Position numbers and translations under genes: made by a program. From Heterohyrax brucei (Eukaryota > Chordata > Mammalia > Hyracoidea > Procaviidae): a DNA stretch of 64,000 nt. This document shows, piece by piece, positions 5,176-59,615 of this stretch. The stretch is taken from contig CM053141.1 of assembly GCA_028571685.1 (NCBI GenBank), positions 138,908,833 to 138,972,832 on the forward strand, given 5' to 3'. Each line of letters opens with the position of its first letter. Position 1 is the stretch's first letter. Under the pieces are notes generated by a model. It was not told the origin of the DNA. It made no database searches and saw only the letters and a program-made list of their open reading frames with translations.

Positions 5176-5666
5176 CATTTGTTGTTGCTGTGGTAGGTGC
5201 CATTGAGTTGGTTCTGACTCATAGCGACTCAGTGAAAAACAGAACAAAACACTGCCTGGTCCTGCATCATGCCCACAGTCATTTCTATGCTTAAGCCCAT
5301 TGTTGTATGTTGTTGCAGCCACTCTATCAGTCCATGTCCTTTGTGGGTCTTCCTCTTTTTCCTTGGCCATCTACTTTACCTAGCATGATGTCCTTCTCCA
5401 GGGGTTGATTCCTCCTGATGACATGCCTGAAGTAGGTAAGACATAGTCTTGCCATCCTTGCTTTCAAGGAGCAGTCTGACTATACCTCTTCCAGAACAGA
5501 GATGTTCATTCTTTTTGCAGTCCATGGTGTGTTCAGTATTCTTCTCCAACACCACAAAATTCCAAGCTGTCAATTTTTCTTTTGTCTTCCTTATTCATTG
5601 TCCAGCTTTTACATGAATATGGTGCAACTGAAAATACCAAGTCTTGGGTCAGGCTCACCTTAGTTT

Positions 5667-6815
5667 TCAAAGTGATGTCTTTACTATCAACACTTGAAAG
5701 AGGTCTTTTGCAGCAAATTTGCCCAGTGCAATGCATCTTGATTTCTTGACTCCTGTTTCCATGGGTGTTGATTGTGGAAACAAGTAAAATAAAATCTTTG
5801 AAACCTCAACCTTATCTCCATTTATTGTAGTGTTGCTTACTGGTCCACTCATGAGGATTTCTGTTTTCTTGATGTGGAGGTAAAACCCACACTGAAGGCT
5901 GTGGTCTTTGATCTTCCTCGGTAAGTGTTTCAAATCTTCTTCAATTTCCGCAAGTGAGATTGTGTCATCTCTGTAACACAGGTTGGTAGTGATTCTTCCT
6001 CCAATCCTGGTGCCTCATTCTTTTTCACATAATGCAGTTTCTCAGATTATTTGCTAAGTGTACAGACTGAAAAGACATGGTGAAAGGATACAACCCTGAT
6101 GCACACCTTTTCTGATTTTAAATCCTGAAGTGTTCTCTTGTTCTGTTCACATGACTGGCTGTTGATCCATGTACGGTTTCCTTAAGAGCACAATTAAGTG
6201 TTCAGGAATCCCCATTCTCCACAATGTTACCATAATTTGCTATAATCCACACAGCTGAATGCCTTTGCATAGTCAATGAAACATAGGTAAACATCTTTCT
6301 GGTATTCTCTGCTTTCAGCCAAGATCCACCTGACGTTAGCAATGGTATCCCTGGTTCCACATCCTCTTCTGAATCCAGCTTGAATTTCCAGCAGTTACGT
6401 GTCAATTCATTATTGCAGTCACTTTTGAGTGATCTTTAGCAGAATTTTACTTGTGTGTGATATTAATGATATAGTTCAATAATTTCTGCATTTTATTGGG
6501 TCACCTTTCTTGGGAATAGGCACAAATATGGATCTCTTGCAGTCAGTTGGCCAGGTATCTGTCTTCTAAATTTCTTGGCATAGAGGAACGAGCATTTCCA
6601 GTTTACATCTGTTTGTTGAAACATTCAATTGCTATTCCATCAATTCCTGGAGACTTGTTTTTTGCCAATGCCTTCAGCGCAGCTTCAACTTCTTCCTTCA
6701 GTACCACTGATTTCTTATCATATGCTGCCTCTTGAAGTGGTTCAGCATCACTGGTTCTTTCTGGTATAATGGCTGTGTGTATTCCTTTCATCTTCTTTTG
6801 ATGCTTCTTTGTCAT
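5667..6815 (-). pseudogene. RTE reverse transcriptase remnant
   Basis: Several frames together cover the reverse transcriptase: 'AKNKSPGIDGIAIECFNKQM' at about 6603-6660, the FVDY-like block near 6250-6290 and the active-site region near 5960-5985. The active site reads Y-R-D-D, where RTE elements typically have Y-A-D-D. Frameshifts separate the blocks. The cysteine/histidine-poor C-terminal part continues towards 5380. Non-functional. Confidence 0.8.
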
Positions 6816-9720: not shown

Positions 9721-10404
9721 ATCAGGGCTCTCTTAATAATTATACATAAGGAGCTAAAATTAATGAGTAAGCAGGACACCCAAGCCTTTGCTATGCACTT
9801 CTAGTTTGTGACTAAGCAGATAGTAGGAGCAACTTGCCAGTGATTTTACAGCTATGTTTTACAATAAACCATACATAGACTGAACAGTTTAAACATCTTG
9901 GAGGCTTTAATTTATTCAGCTTAAGAGCTTAGTTGTTGGAAAAAAAAATAATGGAAAGTAGGCCGTGTGACTGATTTTCCTGAATTCTAAATTTAGCTTA
10001 AACATATTCCTAATCCCCTGTGCCAGGGATATTTTATTGAAAATTTATTTGAATTATATCAATCTGATCACCTTTGTTAATTCAAGGATTTAGGTGGGCA
10101 AAAACATGTGCTTTTTAGTCCGGGCAATCCTGTAAATGATATTCTATCTGATTATCAAGCTTCTTAGCTTAAATCCAGTGTGATTGTAAAAGACTATTAA
10201 ATCTTTGATGCCAGTAAAGGCGATCTCACACATGGTTACATTTGAGAAGGCAGAGGAAATGCACTCCATGACCACAGCCTGCACTTTAAATCTTTAGTAT
10301 ATTGAAGAAACCAGAAAAGATCAACTTGTGTGAAACGCAACGCAAATTCAAAAGCACCTTTTTGGGTCTGCATGACTTAAAGAAAAATATTACTACTAAC
10401 TAAA
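9721..10404. other. Unassigned AT-rich sequence
   Basis: No gene or recognised repeat. No long reading frame. Confidence 0.4.
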
Positions 10405-10725
10405 ATAGTTGCCAAGCCAAGTGCTGTTGAGTCGAATCCGACTTGAGGAGCGTACTATTTTTGTTGTCAGCTATCAGGAAAGCTGGCTCCTAAATCATGA
10501 TAATCCATGTGCAATGAGCCATTGTGCTCCATTGATTTTTAATTGACTTTTTTCAAAAGTAGATCAACAGGCCTCTCTTCCTAGCCTGTCTTAATCTGGA
10601 AGCTCTACTAAAACTTGTTTAGCATCACTACAGACATGTAGTAGCTATGACCGAAGTGCACTGGCCAGGAATCCAACATAGGTCTGCACCATGTAGGTGA
10701 GAATTCTTCCACTCAACCACCACTG
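10405..10725 (-). mobile_element. tRNA-Gly-headed SINE with RTE-derived body
   Basis: On the minus strand the head resembles tRNA-Gly (A box near 10700-10715, B-box-like 'ggattcctggccagtgcac' at about 10655-10675). The body contains a piece of the RTE 5' region ('gagcttccagattaagac') and the 3' end is the RTE tail ending in TTGGCTTGGC. It is thus a composite of tRNA, RTE 5' and RTE 3' sequence, distinct from the shorter AfroSINE. Confidence 0.75.
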
Positions 10726-13721: not shown

Positions 13722-13731
13722 ATGGTAGTAT

Positions 13732-13754
13732 AGCCAAGTGTCATCGAGTCGGAT
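13732..13754 (-). mobile_element. 23-base RTE/AfroSINE tail micro-insertion
   Basis: The inserted bases equal the last 23 bases of the TTGGC-type RTE/AfroSINE tail in minus orientation ('gccaagtgtcatcgagtcgg' in plus reading). They are flanked on both sides by atggtagtat (13722-13731 and 13755-13764), a perfect 10-bp direct repeat. This looks like an extreme 5' truncation of a target-primed insertion. Confidence 0.75.
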
Positions 13755-14071
13755 ATGGTAGTATGGAGTACTGTTAATTTTGTTAGGTGTGTTAATGGTG
13801 TGGTACTGTAAGAGTATGTTGCAACTTCTTTGAGCCCCATGCTGAAGCATTTAGGAGTAAGGTATCTGGACAATTTTAATCTGCTTTGAAATATAGGAAA
13901 AATATAGAGAGGGATAAAGCAACTCTGATACAGTATAAACAGTGTTTAAATCTAGGTGGTGGGTATTTTTTTCCTTCTAATTTTCACATACTTGAAAGTG
14001 TCTAAAATGAGTGATTCTTTTAATTGACTGTTTTTGGTGGTTTCTACCTTTGGTGTCAGACTGAGAAAACT

Positions 14072-14312
14072 TTTTCCAAATACCAAAAACAAAACCCCAC
14101 TGCCATCGAGTTGATTCTGACTCACAGCTACCCTTCAGACAGAGTAGAACCACTCTCCTGGGATTTCCAAGGAGTGCGTGGTGGATTCAAACTGCCAGCC
14201 TTTTGGTCTGCAGACATACCACTTCACCACTACACCAGGGTTTCCTTTCTCAAATACCTGCTGCCATCAAGTCGGTTTGGACTCATAGAGACCCTAGAGG
14301 TCAGATAGGGAA
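14072..14312 (-). mobile_element. AfroSINE plus adjacent tail fragment
   Basis: Minus-strand AfroSINE at 14072-14252 with a CAAAACC-type tail at its left and the head ending 'ccagggtttcc'. Immediately right, 14253-14312 is another tail-plus-body fragment ('gccatcaagtcggtttggac'). Confidence 0.85.
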
Positions 14313-19214: not shown

Positions 19215-20515
19215 AAAGCAATGGCAACACTTCATTGATAGGGAACTGCCAGAATTTCAAACCAGATTCAGAAGAAGATGTACAAGAGGCATATCATTTT
19301 TAACATCAGATAGATCTTGGCTAAAAGCAGAGAATGCCAGAGAGATGTTTACCTATGTTTTATTGACTACACACATGCATTCAGCTGTATAGATCATAAC
19401 AAATCCTGGGTAACATTTCCAAGAAAGGGAATTCCAGAACACTTAATTGTGCTCATAAGGAACCTGTACATAAATCAAGAGGCAGTTGTTAGAATAGAAC
19501 AAGGGGATAATATGTGGTTTAAAATCAGGAAAGATGTGTGTCCAGTTTGAATCCTTTCACCATACTTATTTAATCTGCATGTTGAACAAATAAGCTGAGC
19601 AGCTGGACTGTATGAAGAAGAATAGGGCATCATTATTGGATGAAGACTCATTAACAACTTGTGATACATAGATGGCACAACCTTAATTGCTGAAAGTGAA
19701 GAAGACTTGAAGCACTGATGAAGATCAAAGACCACAGTCTTCAGCACAAACTATACCTTAACGTAAAGAACGCCAAAATCCTCACAACTGAGCCAATAAG
19801 CAACACCATGATAAATGGAGAAGAGATTGAAGTTGTGAAGAATTTTGTTATACTTGGATCACAATTAACACCCATGGAAGCAGCAGTTATGAAATCTTTA
19901 AAGTGTTATAAAAAGCTGAGAGTCACTTTGAGGACTAAGGTGTACCTGCCCTAAGCCATGGTGTTTTCAGTTACCTCATACACACATGAAAGAGTCACTA
20001 TGAGTCAGAGTCAATTTGATGGCAATGTTATTTTGTTTCTTTGCTTGTTTGTTTATATGCATGTGAAAGCTGAGCAATGAATAAGGAAGACCAAAGAAGA
20101 ACTAATGCTTTTGAATTATGATGTTGGTGAAGAATACTGACTAAGTCATGGACTGCCAGAAGAAAGAACAAATCTGTCTTGGAAGCAGTACAACCAGAAT
20201 GTTCTTTAGAAGGGAGGATGGCATGATCTCTCTTTTGTATTTTGGAGACACCACTCCCTGAAGAAAGACATTATGCTTGGTAAAGTAGAAGGTCTGTGAA
20301 AAAAGAGGAAGACTCTCAATGAGATGAATGACAGTGGCTAGGGTCGCTATGGGTTGGATCCAACTCCACGGCTCTTGGCTGGCTGGCTGGCAGTAATAAT
20401 GGGCTCAAGCATAACAACAATTGTGGGCTAACACAGGACTGGGCAATATTTCCTTTTGTTGTACATAGGGTCACTTTAAGTTGGACTCGATGGTCCCAAA
20501 CGACAACTTAATATG
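19215..20515 (+). mobile_element. RTE-clade LINE, 3' part
   Basis: Plus-strand RTE from within the RT to the 3' end ('gggctcaagcataacaacaa', tail near 20490). Two short tail-only inserts interrupt it (about 19990-20053 and 20341-20390). Its 5' part is missing. Confidence 0.85.
19317..19954 (+). pseudogene. RTE reverse transcriptase remnant
   Basis: The frame 19317-19550 contains VYLCFIDYTHAFSCIDHNK, the conserved RT A motif with the first catalytic Asp, and 'LIVLIRNLYINQEAVVRIEQG'. After frame changes, 19718-19954 continues with 'DHSLQHKLYLNVKNAKILTT' and 'SNTMINGEEIEVV'. The active-site block near 19665 reads as I-D-G, where YADD is expected. Broken and non-functional. Confidence 0.8.
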
Positions 20516-21770: not shown

Positions 21771-21808
21771 AGCCAGCCAAGTGCCGTCGAGTTGGATCTG
21801 ACTCATGG
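21771..21808 (-). mobile_element. 38-base RTE/AfroSINE tail micro-insertion
   Basis: The sequence 'gccagccaagtgccgtcgag' continued by 'ttggatctgactcatgg' is the tail of the TTGGC-type subfamily in minus orientation. By comparison with the 11.5-kb copy, about 20 bases of the mariner arm are lost at the site. No target duplication is clear. Confidence 0.7.
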
Positions 21809-32000: not shown

Positions 32001-32025
32001 AGCCAAGCCAAGTGCCGTCGAGTCG
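32001..32025 (-). mobile_element. 25-base RTE/AfroSINE tail fragment
   Basis: 'agccaagccaagtgccgtcg' followed by 'agtcg', the TTGGC-type tail in minus orientation, next to the 3' end of an L1. No target duplication visible. Confidence 0.6.
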
Positions 32026-32035
32026 AAGGAAGACA

Positions 32036-38700: not shown

Positions 38701-39575
38701 GAAGTGATTTTGTTCTCATTGGAATCCATAAATTTCTTTATTTCATCCCTGATTTCTTCTATAACCCATGTTTTTTTTTGAGCAAAGCGTTGTTCAGTGT
38801 CCTTGAGTTCTGCTTTCTGTCTATGTTTTTTCTGCTATTGATTTCTACTTTTATGGCTTTATGATCTGAGAAGTTGTTTTGCATTAATTCAGTGGTATGG
38901 ATTTTGTTGAGAATTACTTTATGTCCTAACACACGGTCTGTTCTGGAGAATGTTCCATGTGCACTGGAGAAGAAGGTGTAGTTGTCTGCTGATGTATAAA
39001 AATTTCTGTATGTGTCGATAAGGTCTAGTTGGTTGATTGTGGTAATAAGTTCTTCTGTGTTTTTACTGAGCTTTTTTCTAGATGATCTGTCTAATATTGA
39101 GAGTGTAGTGTTGATCCGACTTGACGGCACTTGGCAGTGTTGAAGTTTCCTACTATTATTGTGGAGTGATCTATTTCCTTTTTGAGTGTAGTCAGTATTT
39201 TTTTGATGTATTTAGATGCTCTAATATTAGGAGCATAAATATTTAATATTGTTAAGTCCTGCTTGTGTATCGAACCTTTCAGCAATAGTGCCCATCCTTG
39301 TCCACAACAGTGGATTTTACATTAAAATCTATTGTATCTGAGATTAGAATTGCTACACCTGCTCTTCTTTGTTGACTGTTAGCTTGATACATGTTCTTCC
39401 ATCCTTTAATTTTCAGTTTGTTCATATCTTTAAGTCTAAGGTGAGTTTCTTGTAGGCAACATAGAGATGGGTTATGTCTTTTGATCCAAGATGTCACTCG
39501 ATGATTCTTTACTGGAGCATTCAGTCCCTTCACATTCAATGTGATTATTGATAGGTATGTGTTCAGTGCTGCCAT
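35771..39575 (-). pseudogene. L1 ORF2 (endonuclease, RT, C-terminal domain), broken
   Basis: The start at 39575 reads MAALNTYLSIITLNVKGLNA, the usual N-terminus, with 'CCLQETHLRLKD' following. Endonuclease runs to about 38735, then RT (37611-38420: [15 protein letters not shown], the [10 protein letters not shown] block and [12 protein letters not shown]). The active site near 37450 reads S-A-D-D where F-A-D-D is usual. The C-terminal domain at 35771-36328 has a Cys-rich cluster (CWRGCGEIGTLLHC). A 21-base insert with an 8-bp duplication (39107-39143) shifts the endonuclease frame. Enzymatically dead. Confidence 0.9.
39115..39135 (+). mobile_element. 21-base RTE/AfroSINE tail micro-insertion in L1
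   Basis: Exactly the last 21 bases of the TTGGC-type RTE/AfroSINE tail (core 'gacttgacggcacttggc'), plus orientation, flanked on both sides by agtgttga (39107-39114 and 39136-39143), a perfect 8-bp direct repeat. L1 sequence around the site predicts a single copy of agtgttga, so the duplication arose with the insert. Confidence 0.85.
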
Positions 39576-45074: not shown

Positions 45075-46228
45075 GTGTCTGCAATCAACCCCATATGTCT
45101 TCAGAGCTCCCTGCTCCAGAGTACCCAAACTTTGAATGCTGTGGGGGTTAAATATCAGGTAATACTTGAGCCCTTAAATGACCCACACACTTTCTTACAT
45201 ATTGAGATCTCTCCCATAAACTTGTTGGCAAGAGAATTTCTGTCCAAATGGAATTGTCATACTTACTTTAATGAATAAAGAGAACTATTATAATTTCCAA
45301 ATTATTTATCCAACAGAAATTCAGAGAAATTATAAATAATACAGGAAGATACTTTGCTCCTTGCAGATGTTGCATTTCTAGCCATTATCGAGTATTCTTA
45401 GTCTTTCCTTTTCTGAGGAATTACTTTCTTCAGTGACAGAAACTTATGGGCTACCATGTTCACCAGTGTGATCTGGCTTCTATTGACTGAACCTATAAAT
45501 ATCCAAGTAGATACGACTAAACGTTTACAGAGTGTCCCATAATCCTTTGAAATGTGAAACGAATAAAGAACTAGCCCCAGCCATTCAAAATTTCTTATTC
45601 AAAAGTTTAATTGTGCTCTGTACAAGTCTCTTTAATACTCCTGTGTTCTTAGTAAACAAACCAAATAATTGGGAAGGGAGGTTTGTGAAGGATTTGAGAG
45701 CAGTTAATCATGTTGTTGTTCCTCGATTTCTTATTCTGTCTAATCCTCATTTTGTTCTTTTAAATGTATCTCCCAACACCGCTGATTTTATGGTAGTAGA
45801 CCTTTGTAGTACTTTTTTTTTTTAATTTACCATCCTGGTTCATCCTGATAGTCACTGTTTGTTTGCCTTCACTTGGGAAAATCAACAATTTACCTGGGCC
45901 ATGATGCTTCACTAAATCTGCAACATACTTTTCCCAGTTTTTCCATGCTAACTTACAATCCTTACAGTTTACCTTTAAGTCTGTTAACAATATGTAAGTG
46001 ATTTACTTGTGTGTTCTGAGAACTACCCAGAAGTCAGTGTGCTATTTTTACAGCACCTGGCAACTAGGGGGCATAGACCTCAAAGTAAAAGTTAGATTAT
46101 CTCAACTGTCTGTGAAATATCTGTCACTTGGCTTGGCTTGGATCGTCATTTCTTCAGCAGGTGTTTCTATTGACCTTAAAATGAAAGAGGCAGTCTTAGC
46201 CTATCCCATTCCTAACACAAAGAGATAA
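45075..46228 (+). pseudogene. ERV protease/reverse transcriptase remnant
   Basis: The stretch 45532-45825 (97 codons) shows the RT N-terminal part with NTPVFLVNKPN and 'VKDLRAVNHVVVPRF', and 'FMVVDLCSTFFF' near the first catalytic Asp. Past a frameshift, the active-site block near 45983-46000 reads Y-V-S-D, so one of the two catalytic aspartates is replaced. Further stops follow. The preceding frame 45075-45278 is at the protease/RT boundary. Non-functional relic. Confidence 0.75.
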
Positions 46229-55182: not shown

Positions 55183-55277
55183 CTACCGGGCACTCCTTGA
55201 ATACTCTAGGGGTCAGTTCTATTCTGGCCCCTAGGGTCGCCATGAGTTGGATCTGACTCAACGGCACTTGGCTGGCT
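55183..55277 (+). mobile_element. AfroSINE 3' part in L1
   Basis: Plus-strand fragment of about 95 bases: 'cccctagggtcgccatgagt', then 'gactcaacggcacttggctg'. TTGGCTGGC-type tail. Confidence 0.8.
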
Positions 55278-57084: not shown

Positions 57085-58149
57085 AAACCAGCTTTTGGTC
57101 TTAATGCTTTCAATTGTTCTTCTGTTCTCTAATTCATTTCGTTCTGCTCTAATTTTTATTACGTATTTTCTTCTGGTACTTGAGGAAGGGTTCTTCTGTT
57201 TCTTTCTTTCTAGTAATTCTTTGGTTTGGGCTCTTTCTTCTTTTTGGATGTGTACATTTATTCATATACTGAAATTGACCTCTGAGCACTACTTTTGCTA
57301 TTTCCGATAGGTTCTGGTAGAATGTGTTTTCATTCTCATTTGACTTCGTGCATTTCCTTACTTTGGCCTTGATTTCTTCTATAACCCAGAAGTTTCTGAG
57401 CAAGATGTTCAGTTTCCATGGGTCTGATTTTTCACCCTTGTTTTTTCTGCTTTTGATTTCAACTTTTATTACCTCATGGTCTGAAATGATGCTTTGCAAT
57501 ATCTCAATGGTTTGGATTTTGTTAAGACTTGCTTTATGGCCTAGTATGTGGTCTATTCTGGAGAACGTTCCATGTGCATCAGAAACATTCTCCAGAATGC
57601 TCTTGGGTGGAGTGTTCTGTGTATGTCTATGATGTAAAGCTGGTTGATTGTGGCATTTAGATCTTCTATGCCTTTAAGCTTCTTTCTGGGTATTTTGTCC
57701 ACCACTGAAAGTGGTGTGTTAAGGTCTCCTACTGTTATTGTGGAACTATCTATCTCCCTTTTCAATGCTGTTAGAGTTCATTTGACATAAAGCTCTGTCA
57801 TTGGTGTGTAAATATTTAATATGGTTATGTCTGCCTGATGTATTAACCCTTTAAGCAATGTATAGTACCCTTCTTTGTCCACTATGGTGGGTTGTACCTT
57901 AAAGTCTGTTTTATATGAAATTGATATTGCCTCTCCTGCTCTTTTTGTTGTTAGCTTGGTATATATATTTCCATCCTTTTGAGTTTCAGTTTGTTTGTAT
58001 CTGTGTCTCTTGTAACCAGCATATAGATGGATCGTGTTTTATTTATCCATTTTTCTACTCTTTGTCTCTTTATTGGTACACTTATCATATTTACATTCAA
58101 TGTAATTATTGATAGGTATGAATTTAGTGCTTTCATTTTAGTGCGTTTT

Positions 58150-59615
58150 TGTGTGTGTATTATTCATATTTTCTTTGTTCCATTTAGTTTTCTGTGCTGA
58201 GTCTTTTTTTTATGGGTTTTCTTTTCATTTGTCATTTTTATGTCTGCTGAGACATCTTGATTTTGTCTCTTTTCTTGATCTGTAGAATTGTTAATTTCCT
58301 TTGCAGTTACCTTAACATTCACCCCGATGTTCTAAGTTTAAACCAGTTTTTAATTTCTTTGTACTGCTTTGACTCCATCTGAAAGATCTACAAATACATT
58401 AATTTGTCCCTCATTTTGGTATAATGTTGTCGTAATTTACATACACTGAGATTTCTATTTTCCTATTATTGGTGTTTTAGCTTTTATTTATTGTTGTGGA
58501 TCCTCTATCCATGTTGATATCTGGATGTTATGTCCTGCACTGTATCTTGAGTATATAACTGATGTTACTGAGTTTCTGCTCAAAGAACTTCCTTCAGTGT
58601 TTCTTGTAATTTTCAATTGGTTTTGCAAATTCTCTAAACTTCTGTTTATCTAGGAATGTCCTAATTTTACCATCATATGTGAGGGACAGTTTTGCAGGAT
58701 ATGTGATTCTTGGCTGTCAGTTTTTTTCCTTCAAGGCTTTGTGTATGTCATCCCATTGTATTTTTGCCAGCATGGTTTTCACTGAGCAATCACCTCAGTC
58801 TTAATGACTCTCTGTACATTATTTTTTTATTTAAGCCTAGCTGCCTTTAAGCTGTTTCTTATCTTTAGTTTTGTTAAGTTTGGTTATAATATGTCATGGT
58901 GTCTTTCTTTTGGGATCTTCCTTGTGTGGTGTTTGATGAGCACCTTGGATCGACATCATTTTCTGTCAACATATCTTCAACAGTTCTTGGTATTTTCTGT
59001 TATCCTTCCTTGTTCTGATAATCTGATAATTTATAAATTATTCCTCTTGATAGAGCACCACATAACTCATTGCGATTCTTCATTTTTTGAAAATTTTCTG
59101 TCTGATTTTCCTCATATATGCATATATGCTGGTGTCAGTTGCTTTATCTGCATTCCATTGCCTCAGTCCTGCTTCTTTTACTTTCTATTGCCAATCCAGC
59201 CAAGTGTCGTTGAGTCAAATCTGACTCATGGCAACCAGGTTAGAACTGACCTCCAGAGTATTCAAGGAGTGCCTGGTGGATTTGAACTGCCGACCTTGTG
59301 GTTAGCAGTGGTAGCATGTCCACCAGGGTTTCGACTTTCTATTGAGTTGTCTAATTTTTTAAATTTTATTGTTAATGTGCTGAATTTCAGGTCATTGTTA
59401 CTGAAGTATTTTTAGCAGCCTGTTTAGTTTTCTGTTATGCTATGTTGCACTTTGCCTAATCTTCCTGATGTCTTGAAGTGTTGGAAAAAGAATGAGAAAT
59501 CAATGCATAGGAAAAGTTTAAATTACTCTTTTGTATTCTACCTCTGATAATTACAGAAAGTCTTCTTTGTCTAAAAAACTTTTTGATTCTTTGTTTTGGG
59601 AGTTTCTGAAGCCAT
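58150..59615 (-). pseudogene. L1 ORF1, broken
   Basis: The likely start is the ATG at 59613-59615, in the strong context GCCACCATGG. The frame breaks within about 14 codons. Later ORF1 parts can be followed by similarity to the copy at 40 kb ('ttcaaggctttg', about 58730) down to about 58570. An AfroSINE (59194-59333) interrupts it. Confidence 0.7.
59194..59333 (-). mobile_element. AfroSINE in L1 ORF1
   Basis: Minus strand: 'ccagccaagtgtcgttgagt' tail (TTGGCTGG type), 'caaggagtgcctggtggatt', head to 'ccaccagggtttcg'. Confidence 0.9.

Follow-up and report, generated by a model that had tools for sequence, protein, structure and literature searches.

Short 3' tail insertions of a SINE subfamily in Heterohyrax brucei and their target sites

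The 13.7-kb insertion and its relatives in the window

How does a piece of only 23 bases from the tail of a SINE come to lie between two perfect copies of a 10-bp sequence? This arrangement occurs near 13.7 kb of the window, by which we mean the whole stretch of DNA analysed (64,000 nt; C2:138908833-138972832). A preliminary description had read it as a micro-insertion in which the tail of an element is flanked by duplicated target sequence, and had pointed to a separate case at 39.1 kb. The arrangement itself was borne out at 13722-13764, with the fragment on the minus strand, where 23 bases separate two perfect copies of ATGGTAGTAT:

13722..13731, no strand: target-site duplication copy 1, ATGGTAGTAT
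13732..13754, minus strand: SINE 3' end, 23 nt, corresponding to positions 21-42 (46-nt numbering) plus one T
13755..13764, no strand: target-site duplication copy 2, ATGGTAGTAT

Read on the minus strand, 13732-13754 is ATCCGACTCGATGACACTTGGCT. This includes the 17-base tail ACTCGACGGCACTTGGC with 2/17 mismatches, and the copy measures 22 bases to the end of CTTGGC, or 23 with the last T. A 10-bp repeat by itself is little proof of an insertion, because the window holds eight perfect direct repeats of at least 10 bp with a gap of 12-70 after complexity filtering (14 unfiltered), where 4.1 (sd 2.1) are expected from Markov sequences passed through the identical filter. The 13.7-kb repeat lies flush with both ends of the tail fragment, however, and 0/400 random placements reached its score; repeat and flush tail fragment together are rare, unlike the repeat alone. 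With up to 2 mismatches, ACTCGACGGCACTTGGC was found eight times in the window, but neither in the reversed window nor in 20 first-order Markov sequences. The flush repeat and these tail counts uphold the reading as a micro-insertion with a target-site duplication. We regard the 13.7-kb case as a well supported true insertion, and the class of short tail insertions as better supported still. The flanks of the 13.7-kb copy had no match elsewhere in the window, and no paralogous empty site for it was found in the sequence examined.

Measured to the end of CTTGGC, the eight window copies are ~132, 88, 42, 33, 28, 22, 22 and 20 bases long. The seven others, together with the duplication and the paralogue of the 39.1-kb case, are as follows:

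59199..59330, minus strand: near full-length copy of the same subfamily, with an 11-bp perfect duplication, CAATAGAAAGT, at 59334-59344 and 59180-59190 (derived from offsets)
55185..55272, plus strand: ~88-nt copy in an apparent L1 (by reading), with a possible 5-bp duplication
20338..20379, plus strand: ~42-nt copy with a paralogous empty site and a possible 5-bp duplication
21776..21808, minus strand: ~33-nt copy whose paralogues suggest that ~10 target bases were lost
10416..10443, minus strand: ~28-nt copy
32007..32026, minus strand: ~20-nt copy whose 17-base tail equals the consensus exactly
39107..39113, no strand: target-site duplication copy 1 of the 39.1-kb insertion, AGTGTTG (8 bp counting the next A)
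39114..39135, plus strand: 39.1-kb fragment, 22 nt, within the ORF2 endonuclease region of an L1 (L1 on the minus strand), whose frame it breaks
39136..39142, no strand: target-site duplication copy 2 of the 39.1-kb insertion
57615..57822, plus strand: L1 paralogue with the empty site of the 39.1-kb insertion

For the 59.2-kb copy, 0/400 random placements scored as high as the 11-bp duplication, while at 55.2, 20.3, 21.8, 10.4 and 32.0 kb no duplication rose above chance in the random placements. At the 10.4-kb copy (10400-10455, minus strand) the flanking octamers, AAAATAGT and ACTATTTT, are inverted and not direct. We set aside a tail-only 17-nt copy at 46125-46141 (plus strand), a noise-level tail match with no above-chance duplication; it reads CACTTGGCTTGGCTTGG, that is, bare tail units without a SINE body, possibly a tail-only insertion.

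The 39.1-kb case is a genuine insertion and proved as real as the preliminary description had held. Its repeat fits the fragment ends with P 0.0025 in random placements, and eight paralogous empty placements with an overlap of 5-7 bp were found, which represent seven places since L006 and L010 overlap in the genome. Removal of the insert together with one AGTGTTG restores an open frame with an ungapped 79-residue match to the human L1 ORF2 endonuclease (8sp5_A, E 2.5e-23). Since 7 and 8 bp are both valid readings of the repeat, the start of this fragment is known only to within 1-2 nt.

Number, length and family of the tail copies

We searched the assembly (3.49 Gb, 62 contigs) with a 21-mer of the tail, allowing up to 2 mismatches. 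This gave 80,511 matches (39,979 + 40,532), against 2 (0 + 2) for the reversed pattern. Viral and prokaryote contigs contained no exact match to a 20-mer of the tail. Copy lengths were determined for the first 100 exact tail matches listed, all of which lie in the first ~36.5 Mb of C1. By gap-aware extension 79 of these 100 copies are short (<=42 nt) and 21 longer, with a median of 32 nt above the 22-nt floor that the 21-mer pattern sets; only 2/100 reach at least 120 nt. We preferred gap-aware starts over ungapped ones, by which 82/100 were short, although the former may run slightly into the duplication: L003 at 1500 starts at position 2 with gaps and at 11 without, and a 10-bp repeat is present there. 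Within this 100-copy sample, ultra-short pieces are thus the commonest form of the subfamily with the CACTTGGC tail. The surprise lies in the class, since what appeared to be a curiosity is, in the sample, the common product of its subfamily.

The short form is commoner in the young than in the older subfamily. In the window and in 200 kb around 20 sampled places, excluding the 20 anchor copies, short tails made up 13/19 of the young and 2/32 of the older subfamily (p 4e-6), where a tail counts as short if it extends no more than 32 nt upstream of its core or lacks a collinear SINE match. Six of the 13 short young tails are the window copies, and four have two tail mismatches and may be weak calls. 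An apparent bimodality of the older subfamily was discarded as an artefact, since the young tail had produced cross-hits.

If the sample holds genome-wide, about 60,000 insertions of ~20-45 nt derive from one SINE subfamily (80,511 x 79/100, extrapolated from the exact copies listed in the first 36.5 Mb of C1). Most short insertions would be expected to escape ordinary repeat annotation and to be taken for plain indels. On the same condition, the short copies would constitute a natural record, at nucleotide level, of how far a reverse transcriptase reaches after priming, and they would provide dense insertion markers for the lineage.

The subfamily with the CACTTGGC tail is putatively AfroSINE-like. 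A block of the GAGTCGGA..CGACTCGACGGCA type is common to the SINEs and to an element at 5179-5228 (minus strand) whose tail is rich in CAA; the tail units are TTGGC/TGGC. Judged by its tail this element is a putative RTE, and a stretch at ~6635-6725 (minus strand) may represent an RTE reverse transcriptase motif, which it resembles. The likeness to the pair AfroSINE and RTE1_LA would consist of a putative tRNA-like head and of the 3' block shared with the RTE-like 3' end at 5179-5228. The head and its A and B boxes were read by eye only; ARAGORN (bacterial setting) and Rfam (gathering scores) reported nothing in the window. In contrast to AfroSINE, the present subfamily ends in CACTTGGC plus TTGGC/TGGC and is mostly ultra-short, and the older subfamily is mostly long. 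AfroSINE (AFRO_LA) and RTE1_LA are given as partners in PMC3747384, and the name AfroSINE occurs both there and in PMC5322556.

Target sites of the insertions

Perfect flanking repeats of at least 7 bp were present at 23/100 sampled copies, against 2.5% in a flank-swap null, and repeats of at least 10 bp at 12/100, against 0.3%. Repeats of at least 8 bp flank 12/79 short and 5/21 long copies. No perfect repeat of at least 6 bp was seen at 61/100 copies, and in the ungapped analysis 29/100 exceed the 95% null of the repeat score. Paralogous empty sites were found in the sequence examined for 22 of 85 short copies (79 sampled plus 6 from the window), including the 39.1-kb insertion and leaving out a self-match of the 32.0-kb copy. 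Together, duplications and paralogous empty sites establish insertion for the class. The best overlap at the 22 empty sites is at least 4 bp in 10, 0-3 bp in 6 and negative, meaning that target bases were lost, in 6, although the paralogues disagree for several copies. Duplications are therefore often short or absent, which places the 10 bp at 13.7 kb towards the long side.

The family carries a target signature, which we derived from copies with repeats of at least 8 bp (16 of 17, as L103 lies too near its locus end and was left out). T occupies position -1 in 14/16 (p 6.5e-7, uncorrected for the 24 positions tried), C position -2 in 11/16 and A position +1 in 9/16, and a T-run of at least 3 lies at -17 to -8 in 11/16, against a background of 14% (p 1e-6). 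The 12 short copies alone gave T at -1 in 10/12, C at -2 in 7/12, A at +1 in 7/12 and the T-run in 8/12. At 13.7 kb the copy itself agrees only in its A at +1, since -1 and -2 are both C; at 39.1 kb both -1 (T) and +1 (A) agree, but -2 is G. Neither copy has a T-run of 3. An L1-type target (TT/AAAA) was not found, with A at +1 to +4 in 9, 3, 6 and 2 of 16, and there was no poly(A) tail in the copies inspected.

RTE-type insertion predicts a T-run ~10-14 nt upstream and T/A at the start of the duplication, and the family shows both (16 copies); its target-site duplications also vary in length, with 10 bp for the 13.7-kb copy and 11 bp for the 59.2-kb copy. This signature resembles the Tn-TA signature of Bov-B: according to PMC13295347, Tn-TA insertions, known from Sauria SINEs and from RTE-clade LINEs (Bov-B), likewise have a T-run ~10 nt upstream and a T/A start. 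That paper attributes to Gilbert et al. 2008 the finding of a comparable pattern in an RTE LINE of the elephant. Its own survey, as described there, considered duplication copies of 10-49 bp lying at least 99 bases apart, and inserts of 20-45 nt are absent from it because this distance was required.

How the short pieces may arise

We consider it very probable that the 13.7-kb copy was inserted by RTE-type target-primed reverse transcription. This confidence covers RTE-type insertion as such, and is divided between an early stop of copying and a short template. In the proposed course, a partner RTE-clade LINE would nick the target at T/A downstream of a T-run, the SINE RNA would be reverse transcribed from its 3' tail onwards, and copying would usually end after no more than 20-45 nt, inside or slightly beyond the folded 3' domain. 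The end of the short cDNA would then be joined to the far side of the break, leaving 0-17 bp duplicated or a small target deletion; at 13.7 kb, 23 nt would have been copied and 10 bp duplicated. We infer that an RTE protein is the agent, that an early stop and not a pre-cut RNA sets the length, and that the joining step takes this form. Duplication and SINE overlap by 1-3 nt in 9/16 copies (overlap scored up to 3), with a few intervening bases in 5/16, and these overlaps may hint at microhomology at the 5' joint.

A tentative extension, which we hold to be possible but short of probable, is that abortive target-primed reverse transcription is the main mode of this SINE, the enzyme getting stuck in the folded 3' recognition domain. 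For example, the near-palindromic nascent cDNA might snap into a hairpin once the 5' arm has been copied, comparable to the effect of an intrinsic terminator on RNA polymerase. Should this be so, tens of thousands of insertions of 20-45 nt would have been seeded, each of them a mutation, and perhaps as many or more of less than 20 nt, which would be unrecognisable by sequence. For stringent LINEs, binding of the protein to a tail stem-loop is described in PMC4176376 (zebrafish L2-clade elements).

The last 46 nt of the SINE are predicted to fold into an outer and an inner stem at -17.9 kcal/mol, a folding that is not exceptional because its z is -1.7 and 12/200 shuffles fold equally well. Among the 100 exact matches listed, the 5' starts of the short copies are scattered over positions 1-21, with stops per nt of 0.090 at positions 10-17, 0.062 at 1-9, 0.044 at 18-21 and 0.032 upstream. 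The excess at 10-17 over the rest has p 1.4e-4, for a block chosen after the data had been seen. In the predicted fold this block takes in some of the inner hairpin's 5' arm along with the bases that immediately precede it, and a hairpin formed by the nascent cDNA would be consistent with the stop density there. The inner hairpin is not a sufficient explanation by itself, because the older subfamily is mostly long with a nearly identical one; something else must therefore have changed too. Positions 18-21 were dropped as a candidate stop peak, as no peak appears there in the 100-copy sample.

The preliminary description had also argued from the tail boundary common to the 13.7- and 39.1-kb cases to a real mechanism. 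A mechanism is indeed supported by the genome counts, duplications, target signature and empty sites, but the boundary is no proof of it, because starts cover positions 1-21 and that position accounts for only 7/100. The common start is one frequent stop among many. A special shared boundary was likewise rejected for the window, where 3/8 starts lie within or next to the predicted hairpin loop: for six short window copies, three starts falling within 5 nt are to be expected (P 0.72), and the clustering lies near the floor imposed by the search pattern.

Within RTE-type insertion, a rather doubtful alternative to an early stop is that the template itself was short, the SINE RNA having been cleaved within or close to its 3' hairpin and the tail-bearing 3' pieces of 20-45 nt having been copied. 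The concentration of stops at positions 10-17, close to the base and 5' arm of the predicted inner hairpin, would suit such cutting. PMC5322556 reports truncation within single-stranded regions for other retroposed RNAs, though on the 3' side, and itself favours internal priming over cut RNAs for them. Stops at nearly every position from 1 to 21, however, do not define a single cut site, and outside 10-17 they persist at 3-6% per nt. Far less likely, and in our view improbable, is that a double-strand break was patched with filler DNA, a bit of SINE copied from a near or distant copy. Such patching would accommodate the copies without a duplication or with target bases lost, as well as the 1-3-nt overlaps noted above, but the T-run with T/A and duplications of 8-14 bp are endonuclease traits, and the SINE nearest to the 13.7-kb insert (14086-14133) carries the other tail type. 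The choice of the 3' end does not bear on this explanation, because all copies were found through their 3' tail. Slightly less credible again is that a full-length SINE inserted at 13.7 kb and later lost its 5' part: old repeats do suffer deletions, but this one would need to end exactly at the 10-bp duplication, flush with the shortened 5' end, and 79/100 sampled copies are short. Finally, a chance resemblance of 23 bases next to a chance repeat, of which about four are expected at such spacing in the window, is refuted by the tail controls, the placement test and the genome counts.

Two further known systems offer partial parallels to an RTE-type origin with an early stop. Short 3' pieces of RTE LINEs with duplications of 6-12 bp are already published for Lepidoptera (PMC2887409); these also consist of the 3' end only and have a simple-repeat tail, but they are LINE-derived and keep the end of the coding region, whereas here a SINE contributes 20-45 nt. 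The second parallel, 5'-truncated L1 copies, are usually far longer inserts. They are alike in target-primed reverse transcription and loss of the 5' end (PMC12016303), and differ in their target motif and poly(A) tail (PMC13295347, PMC12016303), while Alu copies are typically complete (PMC12016303). The literature searched, which did not cover Gilbert et al. 2008, yielded no report of a SINE that usually inserts as a piece of 20-45 nt.

Two minor observations concern the ends of the copies. Across L001-L104 the sequence 3' of ACTTGG is variable (CTTGGC, CTGGC, CTTTTGGCTTGG, CCGTGGCTTGGC or repeated CACTTGGC), as if units had been added or had slipped while priming. At ~217 of L043 (plus strand), a short tail copy is preceded by a fold-back made up of ~21 target bases, a piece reading CGACTCATG and the same target bases inverted, as though a cDNA end had primed on the target strand.
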